IMG/VR virus record: IMGVR_UViG_3300021180_000123
Coordinates: 1-21,229 of that record
DNA length: 21,229 nt
Origin: a virus
Reading direction: 5' to 3' (one strand)
Part shown: positions 3,077-11,247 of the stretch, piece by piece
How the letters are laid out: each line of letters starts with the position of its first letter
How positions within the stretch are numbered: position 1 is the stretch's first letter
Position numbers and translations under genes: made by a program
The notes under the pieces: generated by a model
What the model saw: the letters and a program-made list of their open reading frames with translations, nothing else
Databases searched by the model: none
Told to the model about the DNA's origin: nothing

Positions 3077-3415
3077 ATGGGAGGAAAACATCTACCTGGT
3101 TATAAGAAAAAGTATCAACAAGAACATCCCCAGATATATAGGGATTCTAATAAGAGATACTTAGACAGATTAAGAAATGCAGTATTTGATCTACTGGGTC
3201 ATAGTTGTGCAATTTGTGGTTTTAATGATAAACGTGCACTGCAAATAGATCACGTAGAGGGTGGCGGTTCGGTTGAATTAAAAGGAATAAGTAGAGATAA
3301 ATACCTTAAAATGGTGATAGAAAGTGCAGTGAATCAAGAGGAAAAGTACCAGATCCTTTGCGCAAACTGCAACTGGATCAAACGCGATACCAATAAGGAA
3401 CTAGACAAACTCTAG
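3077..3415 (+). CDS. HNH endonuclease
   Basis: A 112-residue HNH nuclease. Zinc-knuckle pairs CAIC (Cys44, Cys47) and CANC (Cys95, Cys98) flank the catalytic segment LQIDHVEG (Asp58-His59), the usual order for HNH proteins with a treble-clef zinc site. HNH proteins beside terminase and portal genes are known in HK97-like phages to assist packaging by stimulating terminase cutting; free-standing homing enzymes look similar, so that is the alternative. I chose ATG 3077, which makes the TAATATG junction with the previous gene; an in-frame ATG at 3047 would overlap that gene by 29 bases. The gene ends with TAG at 3415, and the promoter for the portal gene overlaps its last codons. Confidence 0.88.
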   Translation: MGGKHLPGYKKKYQQEHPQIYRDSNKRYLDRLRNAVFDLLGHSCAICGFNDKRALQIDHVEGGGSVELKGISRDKYLKMVIESAVNQEEKYQILCANCNWIKRDTNKELDKL

Positions 3416-3430
3416 TTATAATGTTATACT
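3402..3430 (+). promoter_or_regulatory. Candidate sigma70-type promoter of the portal gene, near-leaderless
   Basis: TAGACA (3402-3407), a 17-base spacer and TATACT (3425-3430), with only nine bases before the portal ATG at 3440. Transcription should start about 7 bases after the -10 box, giving a leader of about 2 nt and no room for an SD site. A perfect TATAAT at 3417-3422 overlaps, but its -35 (TAAGGA) is poor. The box lies over the 3' end of the HNH gene. Confidence 0.6.
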
Positions 3431-3439
3431 ACCCAAAAT

Positions 3440-5611
3440 ATGGCTGACCAGATATATGGGGATAAGACCTTGACCTCTGCTACTCGGGCAGGAGGACCAG
3501 ACCAGATCACCTCAAAAACCCCCAATAATCTTCCTGCTCTTCAGCCGGTAACTTATGTAGATCCCCAACAGGAGTTCTACATGCCCTCTGATATGGAGAA
3601 GCAGGTGGTTAGAGAGACCTTCTTCAAGTTCCGCTGGACTCAAGACATGAGAAATCGTGCCTACGAGTACATGGATAACCGGACCCTTATTGAATATATC
3701 GATGACTCTGTTAAGCGTTTTACTACCAATATCTTTTCTCGTGAAGGGCTAGAAGATTGGCAAGCTCGGGTCCACGACCCATTCACACGTAATAAGGTGT
3801 TGGAAGTCTTGGGCCGAATCGTGTCCGTCTTACCCATTGCCTCCTTTATGCCAAGGGGTGATGAGGATATCCTTAGAGCTGATATCTTAAATAACCTATA
3901 CTCCTATTCTGAAGAGAAGGACAACTTCGAGGAGTTTATGACCCAATATCTTCTTGAGGCTATTGTCAAGGGAACTGCTGTTGGTTATGAGGGAATGGAA
4001 TATCATGTTCGTAAGGTAAGAGATGTTAAGGGTGTTGGAGATGATATCACCGTTACTGAAGATGAAATTAAGGAAACTAAGTTATTTGCTGAGATAGTCC
4101 CCCTTGAAGAGTTTTATCCAGCCCATGTCGGTATTAGAACGATTAAACAAATGCCTTTCTGCTTCTGGAGAAGGGAGATTTCCTATGATGAGTTTAAGGC
4201 AAATTGGCAGATGTATGAGCGTTATGTTCACGTCAAACCCCACGCTCCGTTATCTCAGTGGAGAGAGCAGCGGCCTTTTTATCTCGATTATGTATCTACC
4301 ACAGTACAACCTGGTAATGTGGAAATCGTTAGACTCTACGACAAAATCAATGATGTCTATGTTATTCTGGCTAACGGTGTGTGGCTTAATCCTATTGTTG
4401 GGAAAGGTGACAAAGAACTTGTAAGTCCTCTTCCTTGGAATCACAAGGAGCTTCCGTTCTTCGATGCGAAGTTTGACTTCTTTGGTAATTGGTTCTATGG
4501 TAAGTCACTTCCTGACAGACTTCAATCTTTCCAGGATGTTATGGATGTACTTACGAATATGGTGTTGGACCAGTCATTCCTTACCATCTTCCCACCCTTG
4601 CTTACTGCGGGCAACGATGCCATTGAAGATGATTATCTCCGCCCGGGTCGCCGAACTCCTATTGACACTCAGGGCCTACCCCTAAACCAAGCCTATGCTA
4701 AACTGGATCTTGGAGCACCTTCTGGGTGGCATGAGTTTATATTGAATTGGACCAAGGGAGTTCTTGAGGAGTCTTCGGTTAATATAGCTGGTCAGGGAAT
4801 GGGTGGTACTGGTAATCGTGTTACAGCCCAAGAAGTTGGTGTGGCTCAACAAGGTGTTCAGGCCCTTATGTCAATCTTTGGTAGGATGATTAATTATGCC
4901 CTGAAACAAAAGGCCATGCTACGTGGTGCCAATATTCTCCAGTTCTGGACTGATCCAAATACTCCAATGTTACAGGGGGTTCTCGGAGACACAGCTGATG
5001 AAGACTTTAAGAAGGCCTTTAACTTAATCAAGGTAGATGGAACTACATTAGCAAGCGGTAAGCGTGGAACGAAGGTAATAGCCATGTACCAAGGCCAGGA
5101 GAACATGCCGACCCAACAGACTCTTAAGGCAAAAGCCGTTGTCAAACAGGCGATGAATCCAGGAGGTCGTCCAGTTGAGTACGTAGCTGTTGATGCTGCC
5201 TATCTACGAAATATTGAGTTCAATGTTAAACTGATTATGGACCAAAAGAAAGATCAGACCAAGGATCTTGAGAAGGCTCTTCAGCTTGAGAAGATCCGAG
5301 TTTATATGACGTTCTTTGGAAGCCAAGTAGACACGCAAGAACTCCTTGCCCAAACAGCAGAGAAGTTTGGTGATGACCCATCTAAGGTTATGGCTAAACA
5401 GCAACAACCTGGCCAACAAGGACAACCTCAGCCTGGTCAACCTGGACAAAAAGGACAACCCGGTCAAGGTGCTCCAGGGGGTCAGAATATTGGCACCAAA
5501 CCTCAGTTTAATATTACTGGGAACATGACTAATACTGGGTTGGGAGTAAATGGAGGTATGCAGAATATGGGAGAATTAATGGGGACGGGTCAAGTAACTA
5601 ATAATAAATAG
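3440..5611 (+). CDS. Portal protein with collagen-like C-terminal segment
   Basis: A 723-residue protein downstream of the large terminase, with the size and character of podovirus and P22-type portals, the dodecameric ring through which DNA enters and leaves the head. Supporting stretches include the segment around GKSLPDRLQSFQDVMDVL (about 355-372), typical of portal wing/stem regions that begin a long helix, and the following hydrophobic helix. There is no signal peptide. Residues about 654-682 form an unusual Pro-Gly-Gln stretch with collagen-like G-x-y spacing, followed by a Gly/Asn/Met-rich tail; such tails are not part of the core portal fold. The start is fixed by a promoter that leaves only nine bases before the ATG. 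It is followed by a small gene after TAG-GT. Portal is by far the best reading. Confidence 0.85.
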   Translation: MADQIYGDKTLTSATRAGGPDQITSKTPNNLPALQPVTYVDPQQEFYMPSDMEKQVVRETFFKFRWTQDMRNRAYEYMDNRTLIEYIDDSVKRFTTNIFSREGLEDWQARVHDPFTRNKVLEVLGRIVSVLPIASFMPRGDEDILRADILNNLYSYSEEKDNFEEFMTQYLLEAIVKGTAVGYEGMEYHVRKVRDVKGVGDDITVTEDEIKETKLFAEIVPLEEFYPAHVGIRTIKQMPFCFWRREISYDEFKANWQMYERYVHVKPHAPLSQWREQRPFYLDYVSTTVQPGNVEIVRLYDKINDVYVILANGVWLNPIVGKGDKELVSPLPWNHKELPFFDAKFDFFGNWFYGKSLPDRLQSFQDVMDVLTNMVLDQSFLTIFPPLLTAGNDAIEDDYLRPGRRTPIDTQGLPLNQAYAKLDLGAPSGWHEFILNWTKGVLEESSVNIAGQGMGGTGNRVTAQEVGVAQQGVQALMSIFGRMINYALKQKAMLRGANILQFWTDPNTPMLQGVLGDTADEDFKKAFNLIKVDGTTLASGKRGTKVIAMYQGQENMPTQQTLKAKAVVKQAMNPGGRPVEYVAVDAAYLRNIEFNVKLIMDQKKDQTKDLEKALQLEKIRVYMTFFGSQVDTQELLAQTAEKFGDDPSKVMAKQQQPGQQGQPQPGQPGQKGQPGQGAPGGQNIGTKPQFNITGNMTNTGLGVNGGMQNMGELMGTGQVTNNK

Positions 5612-5613
5612 GT

Positions 5614-5928
5614 ATGTGGTGGCAACCCAAGATTATAGTTAAAACCATCGAGATCGAGAAGGACAGCACAGAGTCTGAACTCTCCTTTAAACTAGCCAAT
5701 AAGTTAGGAGACCTTACTGCGGTTGAAATTACGACCGAAGGGGTTGATCAACTCTTCACACAACTATCTGGGGTAGATGGTCTTTTAGACTACCTGGCTG
5801 ACACAATGAGGGCTGATATTAACCGTTATTTCTCTGCTGTCACTGACAAAGACCGCGACATTATTCGTGGTGCGTTCTCTCGGACTGCATTTATTAGGGC
5901 TGCCTTACTTGACAAATTAAGGAAATAA
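5614..5928 (+). CDS. Small hypothetical protein downstream of portal
   Basis: A 104-residue acidic, mostly helical protein with an N-terminal strand (KIIVKTIEI). The C-terminal half (DYLADTMRADINRYFSAVT then RGAFSRTAFIRAALLDKLRK) reads as amphipathic helices. It starts two bases after the portal TAG and has no SD, so it is probably translated by coupling with the portal. The last codons contain the -35 and most of the spacer of the strong capsid promoter. It is not recognised; a portal-associated accessory role is a guess from position. Confidence 0.7.
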   Translation: MWWQPKIIVKTIEIEKDSTESELSFKLANKLGDLTAVEITTEGVDQLFTQLSGVDGLLDYLADTMRADINRYFSAVTDKDRDIIRGAFSRTAFIRAALLDKLRK

Positions 5929-5937
5929 TCATATAAT
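5909..5937 (+). promoter_or_regulatory. Perfect-consensus sigma70-type promoter for the head operon
   Basis: TTGACA (5909-5914), exactly 17 bases, TATAAT (5932-5937): a full match to the bacterial housekeeping consensus at both hexamers and optimal spacing. The expected transcription start is near 5944. It drives a long structured leader and then the scaffold-like, decoration-like and major capsid genes, which must be made in the largest amounts. The -35 lies within the previous gene. Confidence 0.85.
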
Positions 5938-5943
5938 ACAGGA

Positions 5944-6118
5944 GATTTCATTGTGATGCCTGAGGTCTACACAGCCTGCCCTGTGTGGACCACAGACCTC
6001 AAAACGTGGTCTACCTGTAAAGGTCGTCGAGGGGCAACACCCTCCGAGCGCAGAAGCTCGTATAAAAAGTGCGTTAGTAAGCTTTCTGCGAAAGCGGAAA
6101 GATAAAAAAGTGTACGAT
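5944..6118 (+). ncRNA. Structured leader RNA or small RNA upstream of the scaffold-like gene
   Basis: About 175 nt between the promoter's expected start and ATG 6119 hold no plausible gene but a series of hairpins: TGAGGTCT (5961-5968) with AGACCTCA (5994-6001), enclosing ACACAG (5969-5974) with CTGTGT (5981-5986); ACCT-GTAA-AGGT (6013-6024, GNRA loop); GAGGG (6029-6033) with CCCTC (6040-6044); CGAGC (6045-6049) with GCTCG (6056-6060); and CTTTCTGC (6082-6089) with GCGGAAAG (6094-6101), closed by a GAAA tetraloop. GACCAC (5988-5993) can also pair with GTGGTC (6007-6012), which would make a pseudoknot with the first stem. No T-run terminator separates it from the gene, so a 5' leader is the simplest reading; a processed free RNA is possible. 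I recognise no known riboswitch or ribozyme. Confidence 0.65.
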
Positions 6119-6763
6119 ATGACAGAGGCAATAGTCCATAAGGTACCTGACGGTACTGGGGACGAAGGTGCAGTTACTCTCACCGCACAAGAGTACAAAG
6201 ATTTAACTGAAAAACTTGCGACGAAAGTCCAGGCTGAAGTTAATATGTCTCAGGAGCTTAAGGATCTTCGAGAGAAGAACCGTAAGTTGGCTGAACAACC
6301 TCAGGTCGAGACCAAAGATATTTCTTCGGTTGTCGAGGCAGAATTGGCAAAGCGAGATGCTGAACAATTGAAAACTATTCAAGCTATCGCCCTAACCAAT
6401 TGGCTTGAGGCCCATCCCCAATTTTCCCCAGAGGAAGATAAGGATGGACTTAAATTTGCCGCATTTCAAAAAGCACTTGGTCGTGTAAACCTGGTCGGGA
6501 TAAAGTCCGAACAAGATTATATACAAGTCCTTAACGATGCGTTACGCCTTACTGAACAGGTACCGACCATGCAACCAACTAATAATTTTGCGTCTTCTCC
6601 AATAGGAGGAGTTCCAGTCCGGGGTTCATCTCCGGTTCAGAACATGACTCCTGCTGAGCAGAAGTTCATCACAAACTCAATGGGTGGTAATATCGAAAAG
6701 TATCTTGTTCTCAAGGCAAAACGACCCGAATACGTTGAAGAGCTGCTTAAGTGGCAGAAATAG
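6119..6763 (+). CDS. Putative scaffolding / capsid assembly protein
   Basis: A 214-residue, highly charged, helical protein between portal and capsid genes, the normal place for a scaffold. Residues about 20-90 contain a coiled-coil stretch (TEKLATKVQAEV through LRDLREKN-like heptads); about 150-185 is a Pro/Ser/Gly-rich linker; and the C-terminal end (MTPAEQKFITNS onward) is a basic helical segment ending EELLKWQK, as expected for the capsid-binding tail of scaffolds. A GTG at 6110 is in frame, but ATG 6119 carries the preceding T seen at almost all starts and is preferred. It is preceded by the structured leader and has no proper SD. Scaffold is inferred from position and composition, not from a signature. 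Confidence 0.6.
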   Translation: MTEAIVHKVPDGTGDEGAVTLTAQEYKDLTEKLATKVQAEVNMSQELKDLREKNRKLAEQPQVETKDISSVVEAELAKRDAEQLKTIQAIALTNWLEAHPQFSPEEDKDGLKFAAFQKALGRVNLVGIKSEQDYIQVLNDALRLTEQVPTMQPTNNFASSPIGGVPVRGSSPVQNMTPAEQKFITNSMGGNIEKYLVLKAKRPEYVEELLKWQK

Positions 6764-6789
6764 ACGAATAGGGTGGTCGAAATTATAAA
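6761..6789 (+). promoter_or_regulatory. Weak candidate promoter before the decoration-like gene
   Basis: TAGACG (6761-6766), a 17-base spacer and TATAAA (6784-6789), beginning in the stop codon of the scaffold-like gene. Transcription would start near 6796, about 20 nt before ATG 6816. An AGGAG at 6795-6799 lies 16 bases from the ATG, too far for a good SD and at the very 5' end of such a transcript. Fits are 4/6 and 5/6, so this is tentative. Confidence 0.35.
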
Positions 6790-6815
6790 CAAATAGGAGT
6801 TTACATACGATTTTT

Positions 6816-7349
6816 ATGGCCTTTACATCTAGAGGTACATTGGACCCGCATGGTGCTCCTGTTCTTCGACACGAAATTCTCGCTAACAGCGTTACTTACG
6901 TCGTTGGTGATGCCCTCAAACTTACGTCCGGCTTTCCGGTCCTCGGTACTTCTGCCACTTTCCTTTATGGAATCTTGGAAGAAAACGAGACAAATAAGGC
7001 TGTGGGTCTCAACACGACTGGAGTAGCCGGTGCTACTGTAGGATCTTACGTCAACAGCTACCTTACTGCCTCCAACAACCAAACCGTTGTTTTGGCACGC
7101 GGTGCAATTGATATTAGTCGTCACACATTGTATTCAGCAAAAGTGAATGCAGCTCTCGGTACAACGCCAGGCTCTAACCTTCTTGGTTACTACCTTGACT
7201 TGGCCGATGAGACGCAACTCGCTGAGTCGTCTACATTGTCCACGACCCTTCAATTCTTTAGCTTTGGCCCAGACCTCTCAAGTGGTACTACACCAGTGAG
7301 ACTTATCGTTTCTTTACACCGATCTTTGGTCTTCGGAAACGATGGCTGA
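6816..7349 (+). CDS. Putative head decoration / capsid-stabilising protein
   Basis: A 177-residue, beta-rich, Thr/Ser/Gly/Leu-containing protein between the scaffold-like gene and the major capsid gene. The N-terminal part (GDALKLTSGFPVLGTSATFLYGIL) resembles small beta-barrel decoration proteins of lambda gpD type, which plug the capsid threefold positions, where an early strand pair and a GxV-type turn are common. No membrane segment or signal peptide. Codon use is biased toward C-ending codons like the capsid gene, fitting high expression. The gene ends in TGA and is followed by a hairpin. The call rests on position, size and strand-rich composition; a minor capsid or head-fibre subunit is the alternative. 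Confidence 0.5.
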   Translation: MAFTSRGTLDPHGAPVLRHEILANSVTYVVGDALKLTSGFPVLGTSATFLYGILEENETNKAVGLNTTGVAGATVGSYVNSYLTASNNQTVVLARGAIDISRHTLYSAKVNAALGTTPGSNLLGYYLDLADETQLAESSTLSTTLQFFSFGPDLSSGTTPVRLIVSLHRSLVFGNDG

Positions 7350-7354
7350 TGATA

Positions 7355-7382
7355 GGGGTATGGGCATAAATACTCATATCCC
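7355..7382 (+). promoter_or_regulatory. Intergenic hairpin just before the major capsid gene
   Basis: GGGGTATGGG (7355-7364) pairs with CTCATATCCC (7373-7382): ten pairs with two G-T wobbles and an 8-base loop. It lacks a following T-run, so it is not a canonical terminator. It may stabilise or mark a processing point for the capsid message. A -10-like TAGAAT at 7393-7398, nine bases before ATG 7408, copies the spacing of the portal promoter, but there is no matching -35. Confidence 0.5.
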
Positions 7383-7407
7383 AAGTGGTGTATAGAATTT
7401 ACATTCT

Positions 7408-8376
7408 ATGCCAGAAACAAGAGGTAAATGGACCGATCTTATCCCAGACACTGGGCTTAAGATCAGTGACATGTTTGATCAAGGTGATCTGGAATACCAG
7501 CCTGGTATTTTTGCGATCCTTCGTCAAGACAGCGGAACGGGTGCCCAAGTAAACTACACAGGTAAGACTGGCTTTGGTGAAGTCCCATCCTTCTTGGATG
7601 GTGACGATGTCCCAACGATTCAGCGCTACAAGACCTACACGACCTCAGTTATTTATTCTAACTATGGTAGTGCGGTTGAAGTAACGAAGAATACGATTGA
7701 GGACCGCGACTTCGCAGAAGAGTTGGGTGAAATGAAAGACCTGTCCCGAGCAATTAACTACTCGGTTGACAAGTCTGGATTCCAGCTCTTCAATGGTGGA
7801 TTCGCAACGGCGACAAACGTGAACAACTACATTATGACTTTTTATAATGATGGTGTTCCGCAGTTCTCGACCGTCCACCCGTCTGTTGTTCCTGGTGCTT
7901 CTTCGCAATCAAATGCGTCATCGACCGGTATCGTCTTGTCTCACGACAATCTCGAAACCGCTCGTATTGCACTGGAACTTCAACAGACTGACAACGGTAA
8001 GGCTTTGACGATGGTTGGCAAAACCACCCTCATTGTTCCGTTGAACTTGGAGAAGACCGGCCGTCAGACCTTGGAGTCAGCATACACTCCGGAAAGCGCA
8101 AACAATGCAATTAACATCTATCGAGGCATGATCGATATGATGTGCACGAAGTTCTTGGACACGATTAACGGTGGACTTAACACGCAATGGTTCTTGATTA
8201 ACCAGGGCGTGCACAAGCTCTACCATGACACGCGTCAGGAGAAGCGCCTTGAAATGGATACGAATATCCGCAACAAGGTTGTTACGTTTACGGTTGATGC
8301 TCGTTGGGCTGACCATTCTCGCGAATGGAAAGGGACATGGGGTAGCTTGGGTAACCTTGCTGCGTACTCGTCCTAA
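7408..8376 (+). CDS. Major capsid protein (HK97-fold)
   Basis: A 322-residue protein in the capsid position. Sequence character matches HK97-fold major capsid proteins of the Mu-like/GpT type: an N-terminal arm, then IQRYKTYTTSVIYSNYGSAVEVTKNTIEDRDF (about 71-102; the E-loop and spine-helix region), the RAINYSVDKSGFQLFNGGF helix (about 115-135), and a C-terminal A-domain with NIYRGMIDMMCTKFL. Codons are strongly biased toward efficient C-ending and CGT/CGC forms compared with the early genes, which use AGA/AGG, fitting a very abundant protein. There is no recognisable protease-cleaved delta domain, so assembly probably depends on the separate scaffold-like protein. It starts 59 bases after the previous stop and is followed by a hairpin. 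Confidence 0.85.
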   Translation: MPETRGKWTDLIPDTGLKISDMFDQGDLEYQPGIFAILRQDSGTGAQVNYTGKTGFGEVPSFLDGDDVPTIQRYKTYTTSVIYSNYGSAVEVTKNTIEDRDFAEELGEMKDLSRAINYSVDKSGFQLFNGGFATATNVNNYIMTFYNDGVPQFSTVHPSVVPGASSQSNASSTGIVLSHDNLETARIALELQQTDNGKALTMVGKTTLIVPLNLEKTGRQTLESAYTPESANNAINIYRGMIDMMCTKFLDTINGGLNTQWFLINQGVHKLYHDTRQEKRLEMDTNIRNKVVTFTVDARWADHSREWKGTWGSLGNLAAYSS

Positions 8377-8390
8377 CCGACACACAGTTT

Positions 8391-8411
8391 GGGCGTTCTG
8401 TCAAAACGTCC
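8391..8411 (+). terminator. Hairpin shortly after the major capsid stop, possible weak terminator
   Basis: GGGCGTT (8391-8397) pairs with AACGTCC (8405-8411) with one G-T wobble and a 7-base loop, 14 bases after the capsid stop. No T-run follows, so full termination is doubtful; attenuation or 3'-end protection of the capsid mRNA is as likely. The rest of the 96-base gap holds a weaker stem, TTCGC (8434-8438) with GCGAA (8460-8464), just before the next start. Confidence 0.35.
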
Positions 8412-8472
8412 CTCGACATTACGTTAAGCTTTATTCGCCAAGCCACGTACATGAGATAAGCGAATTATTAAT

Positions 8473-8724
8473 ATGTTAAACTGGGAAACTGGAACTGGAA
8501 CAAAAATTATGGGTCCAAAAACAATGGGACATTACAGTGAGCACATTGCAAAAATGAAATCTGGTGGTATGTCTCATCTCTTAGACAACCGCTCTTCATT
8601 CTTGAACAACTATGGTGTCAAGTCACCCGCTCCTGAAAGTCCTCTTCCTCAAGCGCTAATGGCTCAGGGAAGTGAGATTAGTACTCCGCCTGAACCCACA
8701 CCGGGAATGGTCATCAATAAATAA
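8473..8724 (+). CDS. Small hypothetical protein after the capsid gene
   Basis: An 83-residue protein. The first half is helical and basic (MGHYSEHIAKMKSGGMSHLL); the second half is Pro/Ser-rich and probably flexible (SPAPESPLPQ, TPPEPTPGM). It is not recognised. Its ATG is preceded by TAAT, making the same TAATATG heptamer as the gene junctions although the upstream gene ends 96 bases earlier, which argues that the motif itself matters for starting translation. It is followed by another TAATATG into the next gene. A head-associated or head-tail connector role is only suggested by its place after the capsid gene. Confidence 0.65.
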   Translation: MLNWETGTGTKIMGPKTMGHYSEHIAKMKSGGMSHLLDNRSSFLNNYGVKSPAPESPLPQALMAQGSEISTPPEPTPGMVINK

Positions 8725-8725
8725 T

Positions 8726-8914
8726 ATGGGAAAAGAAAATGATGAACCGGTAGACCTTAGGGCACAGCGAGTTAAGTTTCTCCCCAAGAATATTAGCCGC
8801 GATGAGGGTAATACAAAGATAAATGGAGGCATTGGGGATGGTGTTAACGATGGCGGGTCTGCCTATCAGATCGACGTCGAAGAAGACACCGAGGAGGATG
8901 AAAAGACTTCTTAG
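8726..8914 (+). CDS. Small acidic hypothetical protein
   Basis: A 62-residue acidic protein ending in a run of Asp and Glu (IDVEEDTEEDEKTS), probably disordered. The start at 8726 makes the TAATATG junction with the previous gene; a longer frame reaching back to 8672 exists but would overlap that gene. The acidic tail could bind a basic partner or mimic DNA, but nothing identifies a role. The downstream nuclease gene overlaps its last 17 bases. Confidence 0.55.
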   Translation: MGKENDEPVDLRAQRVKFLPKNISRDEGNTKINGGIGDGVNDGGSAYQIDVEEDTEEDEKTS

Positions 8915-9170
8915 TTCATCTTCTACCAAGGCGGAACGTAGGGTTTATGAGGTCTTAAAAGAACTTCACATTCCCTTTAAACATCGGTGGTTAGTGGGAG
9001 GATTAGAGATTGATTTCATCATCGGGGATATGGCCCTAGAAATAGATGGCCACGAACAAGATCCCGAGCGAAATCACAAGATACTGGAGATGGGATTAGC
9101 TCCAATTCACTTGTCAAACGAAGCAACAAAGAACCCAACTTACTTAAAAAACTTATTTTTAAACTTATAA
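8898..9170 (+). CDS. Small DUF559-type (PD-(D/E)XK, Vsr-like) nuclease
   Basis: A 90-residue protein with the core of the DUF559 / very-short-patch-repair-like endonuclease family. An N-terminal helix carries Glu13 (KAERRV), followed by GLEIDFIIGDMALEIDGHEQD (Asp39, Glu48, Asp50, His52): the D-x(8)-E-x-D/K centre with the family's typical IDGHEQ end. A following helix and a strand (LAPIHL) complete the fold. Compared with full Vsr proteins it lacks the zinc-binding part. ATG 8898 overlaps the previous gene by 17 bases; in-frame ATGs upstream (8823) would overlap more. A GGAGG directly abuts this ATG but is too close to act as a normal SD. Possible roles are nicking, repair or genome processing; free-standing phage forms are usually of unknown function. 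Confidence 0.7.
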   Translation: MKRLLSSSSTKAERRVYEVLKELHIPFKHRWLVGGLEIDFIIGDMALEIDGHEQDPERNHKILEMGLAPIHLSNEATKNPTYLKNLFLNL

Positions 9171-9174
9171 CTTT

Positions 9175-11247
9175 ATGGCGGGAACTCCGCAACTAACAGG
9201 GAATGCTCCGGTAGTGGGAACAAACCTATTTAAGTTAAATGCAAACTCTAGCTATGCGTCAGAGTATGTAGCCCTTGTAGACAGGAACCACACACCTGTT
9301 TTGCTTCAGGGTCTTACCGTACCTACAACTGGGTACTACGCAACTGGTGCTCTGTTCATGAACCAGAATGGTGGAACAGGCACAACTCTTTATTATAACG
9401 CCAGCACAACCGCAACTCCGAACTTTATCGCAGTATCAAGTTCAGGTGGGGGCGGTGGTGGACTTTCGATTCCGTTTACGGAAACGGATGGTGTTACTAC
9501 GACCGGTACTTCAATCGGCGACACGGGGACGGCACTTACCACAGGTAACCTCTTCTCGGGTACAGTAACTACGGGAACGTTTACAACTGGTGGTGTTGTA
9601 TTCAACGCCCAAATGCAGGCCGTTACGGCAGGTAATGGTTTTGTTGCCACTACAACTGGTGCTTATACTGGTACTGGCCTTTTGGTTCTTACAGCCAACT
9701 CAGCTACTACCGGTACGATTGCAGCAATCTCTGCCACGTCTCTTACGACAGGTAAAGCTTTGACAATCACCGGTTCTACTGGTATGACAGCAGGTTCTGG
9801 CGTTCTCGCTAACATCACCCTTGGTGCAGGTGTGGGTGGTGCAGGTATCGCAGTCGCTACAACGGGTGCATATACTGACACCGCAGGGTTGGTTAAACTC
9901 ACAGCTAACTCACTTACCACGGGTTCTATCGAAGTTGCATCGGCAACGGGTCAGACTTCTGGTACTCTTTACTCTATCACAGGTGGTGGAGCAAACGTTA
10001 CCACGGGTATCTTACTCGACTTGGAAATGGGAGCTGCTACCGCAGGTACAGGACTTAAGGTCTTGACGTCTGGTGTTTATGCTGGTTCTAACAACCTTGC
10101 TCTTTTCTCTGCTAACTCAGCTACTACTACGACTGGTATAGTTTCTATTACAGGTACAGGCCTTACCTCAGGTGTCGGCTTGCTTGTCACTGGCGGTGGT
10201 GCGAACCTTACTACTGGAACAGTTGTTTCTGTAGGAATGGGAGCGGCCACAGCTGGTACTGGTATTTCAATCACCACGACTGGTGTCTATGCCGGAAGCA
10301 ACAACATGCTCTCCGTGGTTGGTAACTCTGCAACTACGACCACTGGCCTTGTATCAATTTCTGGTACTGGACTTACGTCTGGTCAAGCACTGCTTGTCAC
10401 TGGCGGTGGTGCGAACATCACCTCTGGTGGTGCCACGGCGACAATCGCCATGGGGGCTTCTACGACAGGTATTGGTCTTTCTGTTACTTCCTCTGGAACC
10501 TACACGGGTACAGCAGGTAATGGTTTGGTCAACGTTACAGCAAACTCTGCCACAACGTCTGCTGGCCTCGTACAGATTTCAGGAACTGGTCTGACTTCAG
10601 GTCAGGCTCTCTTGATTACTGGTGGTGGTGCAAATGCAACCACGACTAACCCTACCGTCAAATTGACGATGGGCGCAGCCACGGCTGGAGTTGGTATGCT
10701 CATCACGTCCACTGGAACCTACGTTGGTACTGGTGGTTTGCTTGCTCTTACTGCCACGACTGCGACGACAGGATCTTTGGCGGTTATTACTGGTACTGGC
10801 CTTACGACGGGTATCGGACTTGTCATTAACGCAACAGCTGCAACCCTTACTACTGGGTTCTACCTTGCCGCGAATGACGCAGGTCTTAACGTTTACACGA
10901 TTGGTGCCAACGGTCACATCACAAGTAACCAAACAACCGCTCCTACGATTGCAGTCGGTACACAAAACGGTATTACCGCTGCGGCAATCACCGCTGGTTC
11001 ATCTGACGTTTGTGGTACGATCACAACTACAGGAACGAACAACAACGCCGGTAACACCGTCATGACAGTTACCTTTAACAAGACCTACACAGTTGCTCCT
11101 AAGGATGTACAGATGCAGGCTGTTAACCAAAGCGCCGCAACTTCGCAGGTCTTCGTTACCTCAACAGCTACTACGTTTGTTCTTAACATCGTTGCTAGTG
11201 CTACGGCTGGAGCCACGCCGTCTTGGACGTACTCAGTAACTGCGTAA
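9175..11247 (+). CDS. Large repeat-containing fibre / surface protein with C-terminal binding domain
   Basis: A 690-residue Thr/Gly/Ala/Ser-rich beta protein with no signal peptide. The N-terminus (about 1-95) resembles the short domain that begins many metagenomic phage fibres (YATGALFMNQNGGTGTTLYY) and ends in a poly-Gly hinge. Residues about 174-580 consist of five to six copies of a 69-73-residue unit with core features GTGLTSGxxLLxTGGGAN, MGAATAGxG and TTGxYxGxxxLLxxTANSATT, likely a beta-solenoid shaft. The last 70 residues (VMTVTFNKTYTVAPKDVQMQ) look like an H-type-lectin-like beta-sandwich seen at fibre tips. It probably projects from the virion to bind the host. The gene starts four bases after the nuclease stop. 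Confidence 0.65.
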   Translation: MAGTPQLTGNAPVVGTNLFKLNANSSYASEYVALVDRNHTPVLLQGLTVPTTGYYATGALFMNQNGGTGTTLYYNASTTATPNFIAVSSSGGGGGGLSIPFTETDGVTTTGTSIGDTGTALTTGNLFSGTVTTGTFTTGGVVFNAQMQAVTAGNGFVATTTGAYTGTGLLVLTANSATTGTIAAISATSLTTGKALTITGSTGMTAGSGVLANITLGAGVGGAGIAVATTGAYTDTAGLVKLTANSLTTGSIEVASATGQTSGTLYSITGGGANVTTGILLDLEMGAATAGTGLKVLTSGVYAGSNNLALFSANSATTTTGIVSITGTGLTSGVGLLVTGGGANLTTGTVVSVGMGAATAGTGISITTTGVYAGSNNMLSVVGNSATTTTGLVSISGTGLTSGQALLVTGGGANITSGGATATIAMGASTTGIGLSVTSSGTYTGTAGNGLVNVTANSATTSAGLVQISGTGLTSGQALLITGGGANATTTNPTVKLTMGAATAGVGMLITSTGTYVGTGGLLALTATTATTGSLAVITGTGLTTGIGLVINATAATLTTGFYLAANDAGLNVYTIGANGHITSNQTTAPTIAVGTQNGITAAAITAGSSDVCGTITTTGTNNNAGNTVMTVTFNKTYTVAPKDVQMQAVNQSAATSQVFVTSTATTFVLNIVASATAGATPSWTYSVTA
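9694..10914 (+). repeat. Tandem coding repeats of 207-219 bp in the fibre gene
   Basis: Units begin at 9694, 9904, 10111, 10321, 10540 and 10753 (the last is incomplete), each starting with codons for ANSATT or a close form. A partial unit precedes the first. Units 3 and 4 share a perfect 26-bp match at 10181-10206 and 10391-10416, exactly 210 bp apart, which points to recent duplication or gene conversion between copies. Confidence 0.85.

Follow-up and report, generated by a model that had tools for sequence, protein, structure and literature searches.

The T4-type gene 32 leader pseudoknot is, according to a 2010 review, possibly the sole viral pseudoknot in translational autoregulation (PMC3014915). 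In this operator, one pseudoknot lies 67 nt upstream of the AUG, and the A+U-rich ribosome-binding region behind it is unstructured. The operator is bound by gp32, the single-strand-binding protein encoded by the gene under its control, and this binding represses translation. In E. coli, complex pseudoknots serve as the alpha-operon (S4) and rpsO (S15) operators; the ribosome-binding site is included in these pseudoknots or embraced by them, and initiation is controlled by entrapment (PMC10931766). Phage HK022 carries put RNAs just downstream of a promoter and before a long operon, with the two stem-loops of putL lying immediately downstream of its own promoter (PMC9378689). These RNAs of ~70 nt, built from two stem-loops and a triplex, act on RNA polymerase and are not linked to a start codon. 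Two further structured RNAs invite comparison. The phi29 packaging RNA lies at a genome end, and tandem-domain riboswitches such as mini-ykkC have a pair of similar hairpins as tandem modules ahead of a gene.

Here we describe a 181-nt leader RNA (positions 5938-6118) ahead of a scaffold-type gene in the window, by which we mean the whole 21,229-nt virus stretch analysed; it belongs to a lineage of uncultivated phages. It shares with the gene 32 operator a pseudoknot in a phage mRNA leader upstream of a start codon. However, covariation supports two nested pseudoknots here, combined with a closing helix near the AUG, and the gene that follows is a scaffold-type gene ahead of a capsid gene. The gene 32 operator has its own product as ligand. 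Our case for the window leader is built from sequence comparison and computation. By analogy, the gene 32 leader pseudoknot is the closest known case in mechanism. The S4 and S15 operators differ in belonging to bacterial ribosomal-protein genes and in having known protein ligands. Although the phi29 packaging RNA is similar in length, the present leader is located inside a structural operon beside a start codon, and both loop sequences and architecture set it apart from mini-ykkC.

The leader matches no family in Rfam. The covariance-model search suggested in a preliminary description of this DNA returned no family above the gathering threshold in Rfam 15, for the window as well as for the leader cores of 20 relatives. 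The only hit in the leaders of these relatives was a tRNA in L166; under relaxed search settings the window leader still had no match, and L163 had chance-level hits only. The leader element is previously uncatalogued.

Promoter, leader and 5' domain

The preliminary description had reported a perfect TTGACA-17-TATAAT promoter, and this was borne out: it is the sole 12/12 consensus match within positions 3300-9300, and in most relatives a promoter with 0-2 mismatches to the consensus precedes the leader (Table 1). The multiple stems proposed for the leader are also present. Its minimum free energy is -68.1 kcal/mol, compared with -46.3 (sd 3.97) for shuffled sequence (z = -5.49), and none of 200 dinucleotide shuffles folded as low as the native leader. 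Leader folds in five relatives gave z values of -3.3 to -4.7. No terminator was found in the window leader.

Table 1 Features of the leader locus in the window
Feature	Position	Strand	Basis or remark
Promoter TTGACA-17-TATAAT, sigma70-type	5909-5937	+	Overlaps end of p104 ORF; promoter at same place in most relatives
P1, long 5' hairpin, interrupted stem, loop CCUGCC 5975-5980	5954-6001 (5954-5974/5981-6001)	+	MFE fold; 5' domains of relatives
P1b, candidate small hairpin AGACC/GGUCU	5994-6012 (5994-5998/6008-6012)	+	Own versus swapped arms
P2, long-range closing helix GUCGU/ACGAU	6023-6027/6114-6118	+	Flush with scaffold AUG
P3, hairpin GAGGG-GCAACA-CCCUC	6029-6044	+	Model-fitted alignment, relatives
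P4, hairpin CGAGC-GCAGAA-GCUCG	6045-6060	+	Directly 3' of P3
GNG1, first linear motif, GUGC	6069-6072 (GNG 6069-6071)	+	Covariation across relatives
Predicted pseudoknot 1, P4 loop GCA with UGC	6050-6052 with 6070-6072	+	Covariation
GAAA-loop hairpin, 8 bp	6082-6101	+	Optional insertion between GNG1 and GNG2; comparable in L212, L224 and L189
GNG2, second linear motif, GUGU	6110-6113 (GNG 6110-6112)	+	Covariation
Predicted pseudoknot 2, P3 loop GCA with UGU	6034-6036 with 6111-6113	+	Covariation
Scaffold-type gene	6119-6763	+	ATG 6119; named by position before decoration-like and capsid genes

The capsid protein is gpT-like. Searches of Pfam and PHROGs families gave no match for either the scaffold-type or the decoration-like protein, and both names are positional. 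Elsewhere in the window, a 122-aa ORF (window:3047-3415) with a weak, below-cutoff match to Endonuclease VII lies just before the portal gene and overlaps the tail of the ORF ahead of it.

The leader itself contains an open frame of 49 aa, from an ATG at 5956 to a stop at 6105, with AGGAG upstream. As a small protein gene this frame was refuted: five close relatives have no homologous ORF and their frames are full of stops, which leaves this reading practically no chance of being correct.

Most leaders carry P1 behind the promoter, but it is missing from short ones such as L155, L182, L183, L187 and L188. In relatives, P1 stems frequently contain single 1x1 mismatches at fairly regular spacing. 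In L166 (1588-1659), the tip of P1 is a canonical tRNA-Met (CAT) gene whose acceptor stem is extended by P1. The 5' arm of P1b is shared with the base of P1 in the window, so that the two hairpins are locally exclusive; across the leaders, P1b often uses the 3' arm of P1. Own P1b arms scored 10.1 and swapped arms 8.2 (permutation p = 5e-4, with a crude parser), and we consider this arm-sharing hairpin suggestive only.

The preliminary description had listed mRNA protection among the possible jobs, and this fits the 5' hairpin. It is improbable that the leader only stabilises the capsid mRNA against 5'-end decay, as the strong promoter-proximal hairpin in most leaders might indicate, because several phages keep the core without P1 and nested, partner-specific pseudoknots at the AUG would be superfluous for plain stabilising.

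Conservation and covariation of the core

Loci of relatives came from capsid-protein searches of viral contigs, which yielded 5, then 18, then 51. Of the loci matched by capsid, 47 extend far enough upstream to be judged (a count that takes in L158 through L292 and four duplicates), and in each of them the leader lies between a p104 homolog and the scaffold gene. Capsid identity to the window ranges from 37 to 89%. Pattern scans added L197, L204, L212, L224 and L292, for a total of 48 distinct leaders; matches in a broad pattern scan were mostly chance. Near-complete genomes (46-51 kb) have one strong model match each, always at the scaffold leader (11/11), and no matches were found before other structural genes. 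The element of these relatives is flanked by two structural genes in the interior of contigs, and the window is a 21,229-base fragment. The window matches the model at 11.3 bits (E = 3.2), yet this is the top hit and falls at the right position; judged by these matches, the window is a divergent member of the leader group. The model had no match in four phage records (named or deposited) whose gpT-like capsid is distant. Bacterial and archaeal genomes were scanned with capsid and portal as a prophage route to the host, and gave no relatives.

Two relatives showed additional features. The contig of L172 (L017:4150-5831) has a capsid gene seemingly split by an insert that contains a separate 187-aa ORF and may be an intron or homing element. 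Relative G001 (L207:15672-17207 and L208) has a cpn60 chaperonin, a ribonucleotide reductase, an amidoligase and a phiEco32-like COOH-NH2 ligase.

The core common to the relatives comprises two adjacent 5-bp hairpins (P3 and P4), followed by two A-rich linear motifs containing GNG1 and GNG2, usually AAAAAGGGA and in some members AAAAAGUGU. Covariation across relatives points to a nested double pseudoknot in which the P4 loop pairs with GNG1 and the P3 loop with GNG2. Examples of P3 and P4 loops are ACUCAA, ACCCAC, GCAUAA and ACACGA. Many members have a short, AU-rich P2. Read by eye, the inner module of L150, L152 and L153 seems to own a closing helix.

We observed a simple pairing rule: loops with C-A at positions 2-3 accompany GUG, and those with C-U or C-C accompany GGG. 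With alignments and loop table hand-curated and the leaders forming one lineage, so that they are not independent, the loop4-GNG1 table reads 10/0/2/33 (p = 2e-8) and the loop3-GNG2 table 7/0/1/37 (p = 1.8e-7). Crossed loop/GNG controls showed no association (p = 1). Mapped on a tree built from 43 capsid proteins, changes number 8 in loop4 and 9 in GNG1, and 4 in loop3 and 5 in GNG2. Independent pairs on this tree changed in the same direction and none in the opposite one, and the controls did not follow; the starred-branch pairs, 5 and 4, are too few for either sign test alone to reach 0.05. Held-out members follow the rule, and among them L212 and L224 combine a GCAUAA loop3 with a GNG2 of GUG, a form outside the search pattern.

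The closing helix was assessed by exchanging arms between phages: own P2 arms scored 9.7, compared with 5.5 for swapped ones (permutation p = 5e-5). In the model-fitted alignment, 81% of cells pair, compared with 62.5% after shuffling, and the covariation score is 0.463, compared with 0.166 for shuffled and at most 0.21 for slid versions. An automatic pairing parser was kept out of the covariation evidence because it selects for pairing. Together, the predicted twin-pseudoknot structure is well supported. The preliminary description had suspected selection for RNA structure and proposed looking for compensatory changes upstream of the scaffold gene. Such changes were found repeatedly and, because loop and GNG bases covary across at least 45 related leaders, we conclude that the structure is under selection.

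Other elements of the early description fared less well. Its pseudoknot between 5988-5993 and 6007-6012 was rejected: GACCAC and GTGGTC, offset by one base from the stated positions, form an alternative hairpin that is simply nested. The pseudoknots with support lie elsewhere and use other loops. Of its two GNRA-loop stems, the GAAA hairpin is real, but the insertion is missing from most relatives, and counterparts of the GTAA-loop mini-stem (6012-6023) are confined to the closest relatives. We also discarded kissing of the P1 loop (CUGCC) with GGGCA in P3/P4, which occurs in the close group only and is inseparable from ancestry.

The position of the core bears on two other explanations. An RNA antiterminator acting on RNA polymerase, as HK022 put does, could serve the long structural operon. 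In favour, structured RNA sits right behind a strong promoter, and a long series of structural genes on the same strand follows. We give this little credit, since the core is always near the start codon, far from the promoter in long leaders, and put RNAs are shorter and without the twin-pseudoknot pattern. It is even less likely that the locus releases a small RNA of its own or a packaging RNA resembling pRNA. The leader would offer a discrete folded unit with its own promoter and a length near that of phi29 pRNA, but P2 partly overlaps or directly precedes the coding start, and the leader has neither a terminator nor an Rfam match. The core's invariable place just before the scaffold AUG likewise makes this role, raised in the preliminary description, less likely.

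Start codon geometry and Shine-Dalgarno usage

In 42/45 leaders the 3' arm of P2 extends to position -20 or further downstream, counted from the AUG, and in 8 it lies over the AUG. GNG2 is separated from the AUG by 5-33 nt and, with this spacing variable, the blocking geometry differs between phages. Pairing to an E. coli-type anti-Shine-Dalgarno sequence averaged -6.1 kcal/mol for GGG forms and -1.4 for GUG forms. A plain Shine-Dalgarno role for GNG was ruled out, since the GUG variants lack this pairing yet are compensated in the loop, and the spacing to the AUG is so variable. These data indicate that the GNG motif is selected for folding.

SD-like 4-mers were found upstream of 6/103 ORFs in the window and two relatives, and of 0/25 in the window; this near-absence suggests an SD-independent host. 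In such a host, the folded twin pseudoknot might bind the 30S subunit, for instance through S1, and thereby load the scaffold AUG. High-affinity binding of pseudoknots by S1 has been reported (PMC10931766) and counts for this reading, as does the scaffold gene alone having a conserved structured leader near its AUG among so few SD-like sites. We nevertheless consider pure recruitment rather unlikely: a P2 arm over or beside the start codon resembles occlusion more, and the model finds no such element before other structural genes.

Proposed function and significance

The placement of P2 at the AUG, the retention of GNG for folding, the scarcity of SD sites and the lack of a terminator favour translational gating, with recruitment next. 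On balance, the leader probably controls scaffold and capsid expression in cis, at the level of translation, and its 5' hairpin is probably protective. We infer both its regulatory job and its trigger. As a control element, this conserved RNA would head the scaffold-capsid mRNA and act in cis, and its folded core would cover or shape the ribosome-binding region. Translation of the scaffold gene, and probably of downstream genes too, would depend on the opening or binding of this core, which may act as an operator or gate. The trigger may be a phage protein acting autogenously, a small ligand or a ribosomal protein (S1, for example), and P1 probably serves to protect the 5' end. Control of capsid output and ribosome recruitment, both among the jobs first proposed, stay live in this SD-poor genome.

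A bolder version is possible, albeit one we hold tentatively: in a host that works independently of SD sequences, the phage-encoded twin pseudoknot may recruit or gate ribosomes at one key gene, and its two repeated modules might sense a protein or ligand. If true, such a recruiter or gate would represent a new translation-initiation RNA class.

Translational pseudoknot operators have rarely been described in phages. The element presented here has no Rfam family, is kept down to 37% capsid identity with strong covariation, and occurs in low-SD genomes. In conclusion, it gives a concrete RNA candidate for setting the amount or timing of capsid in such phages.
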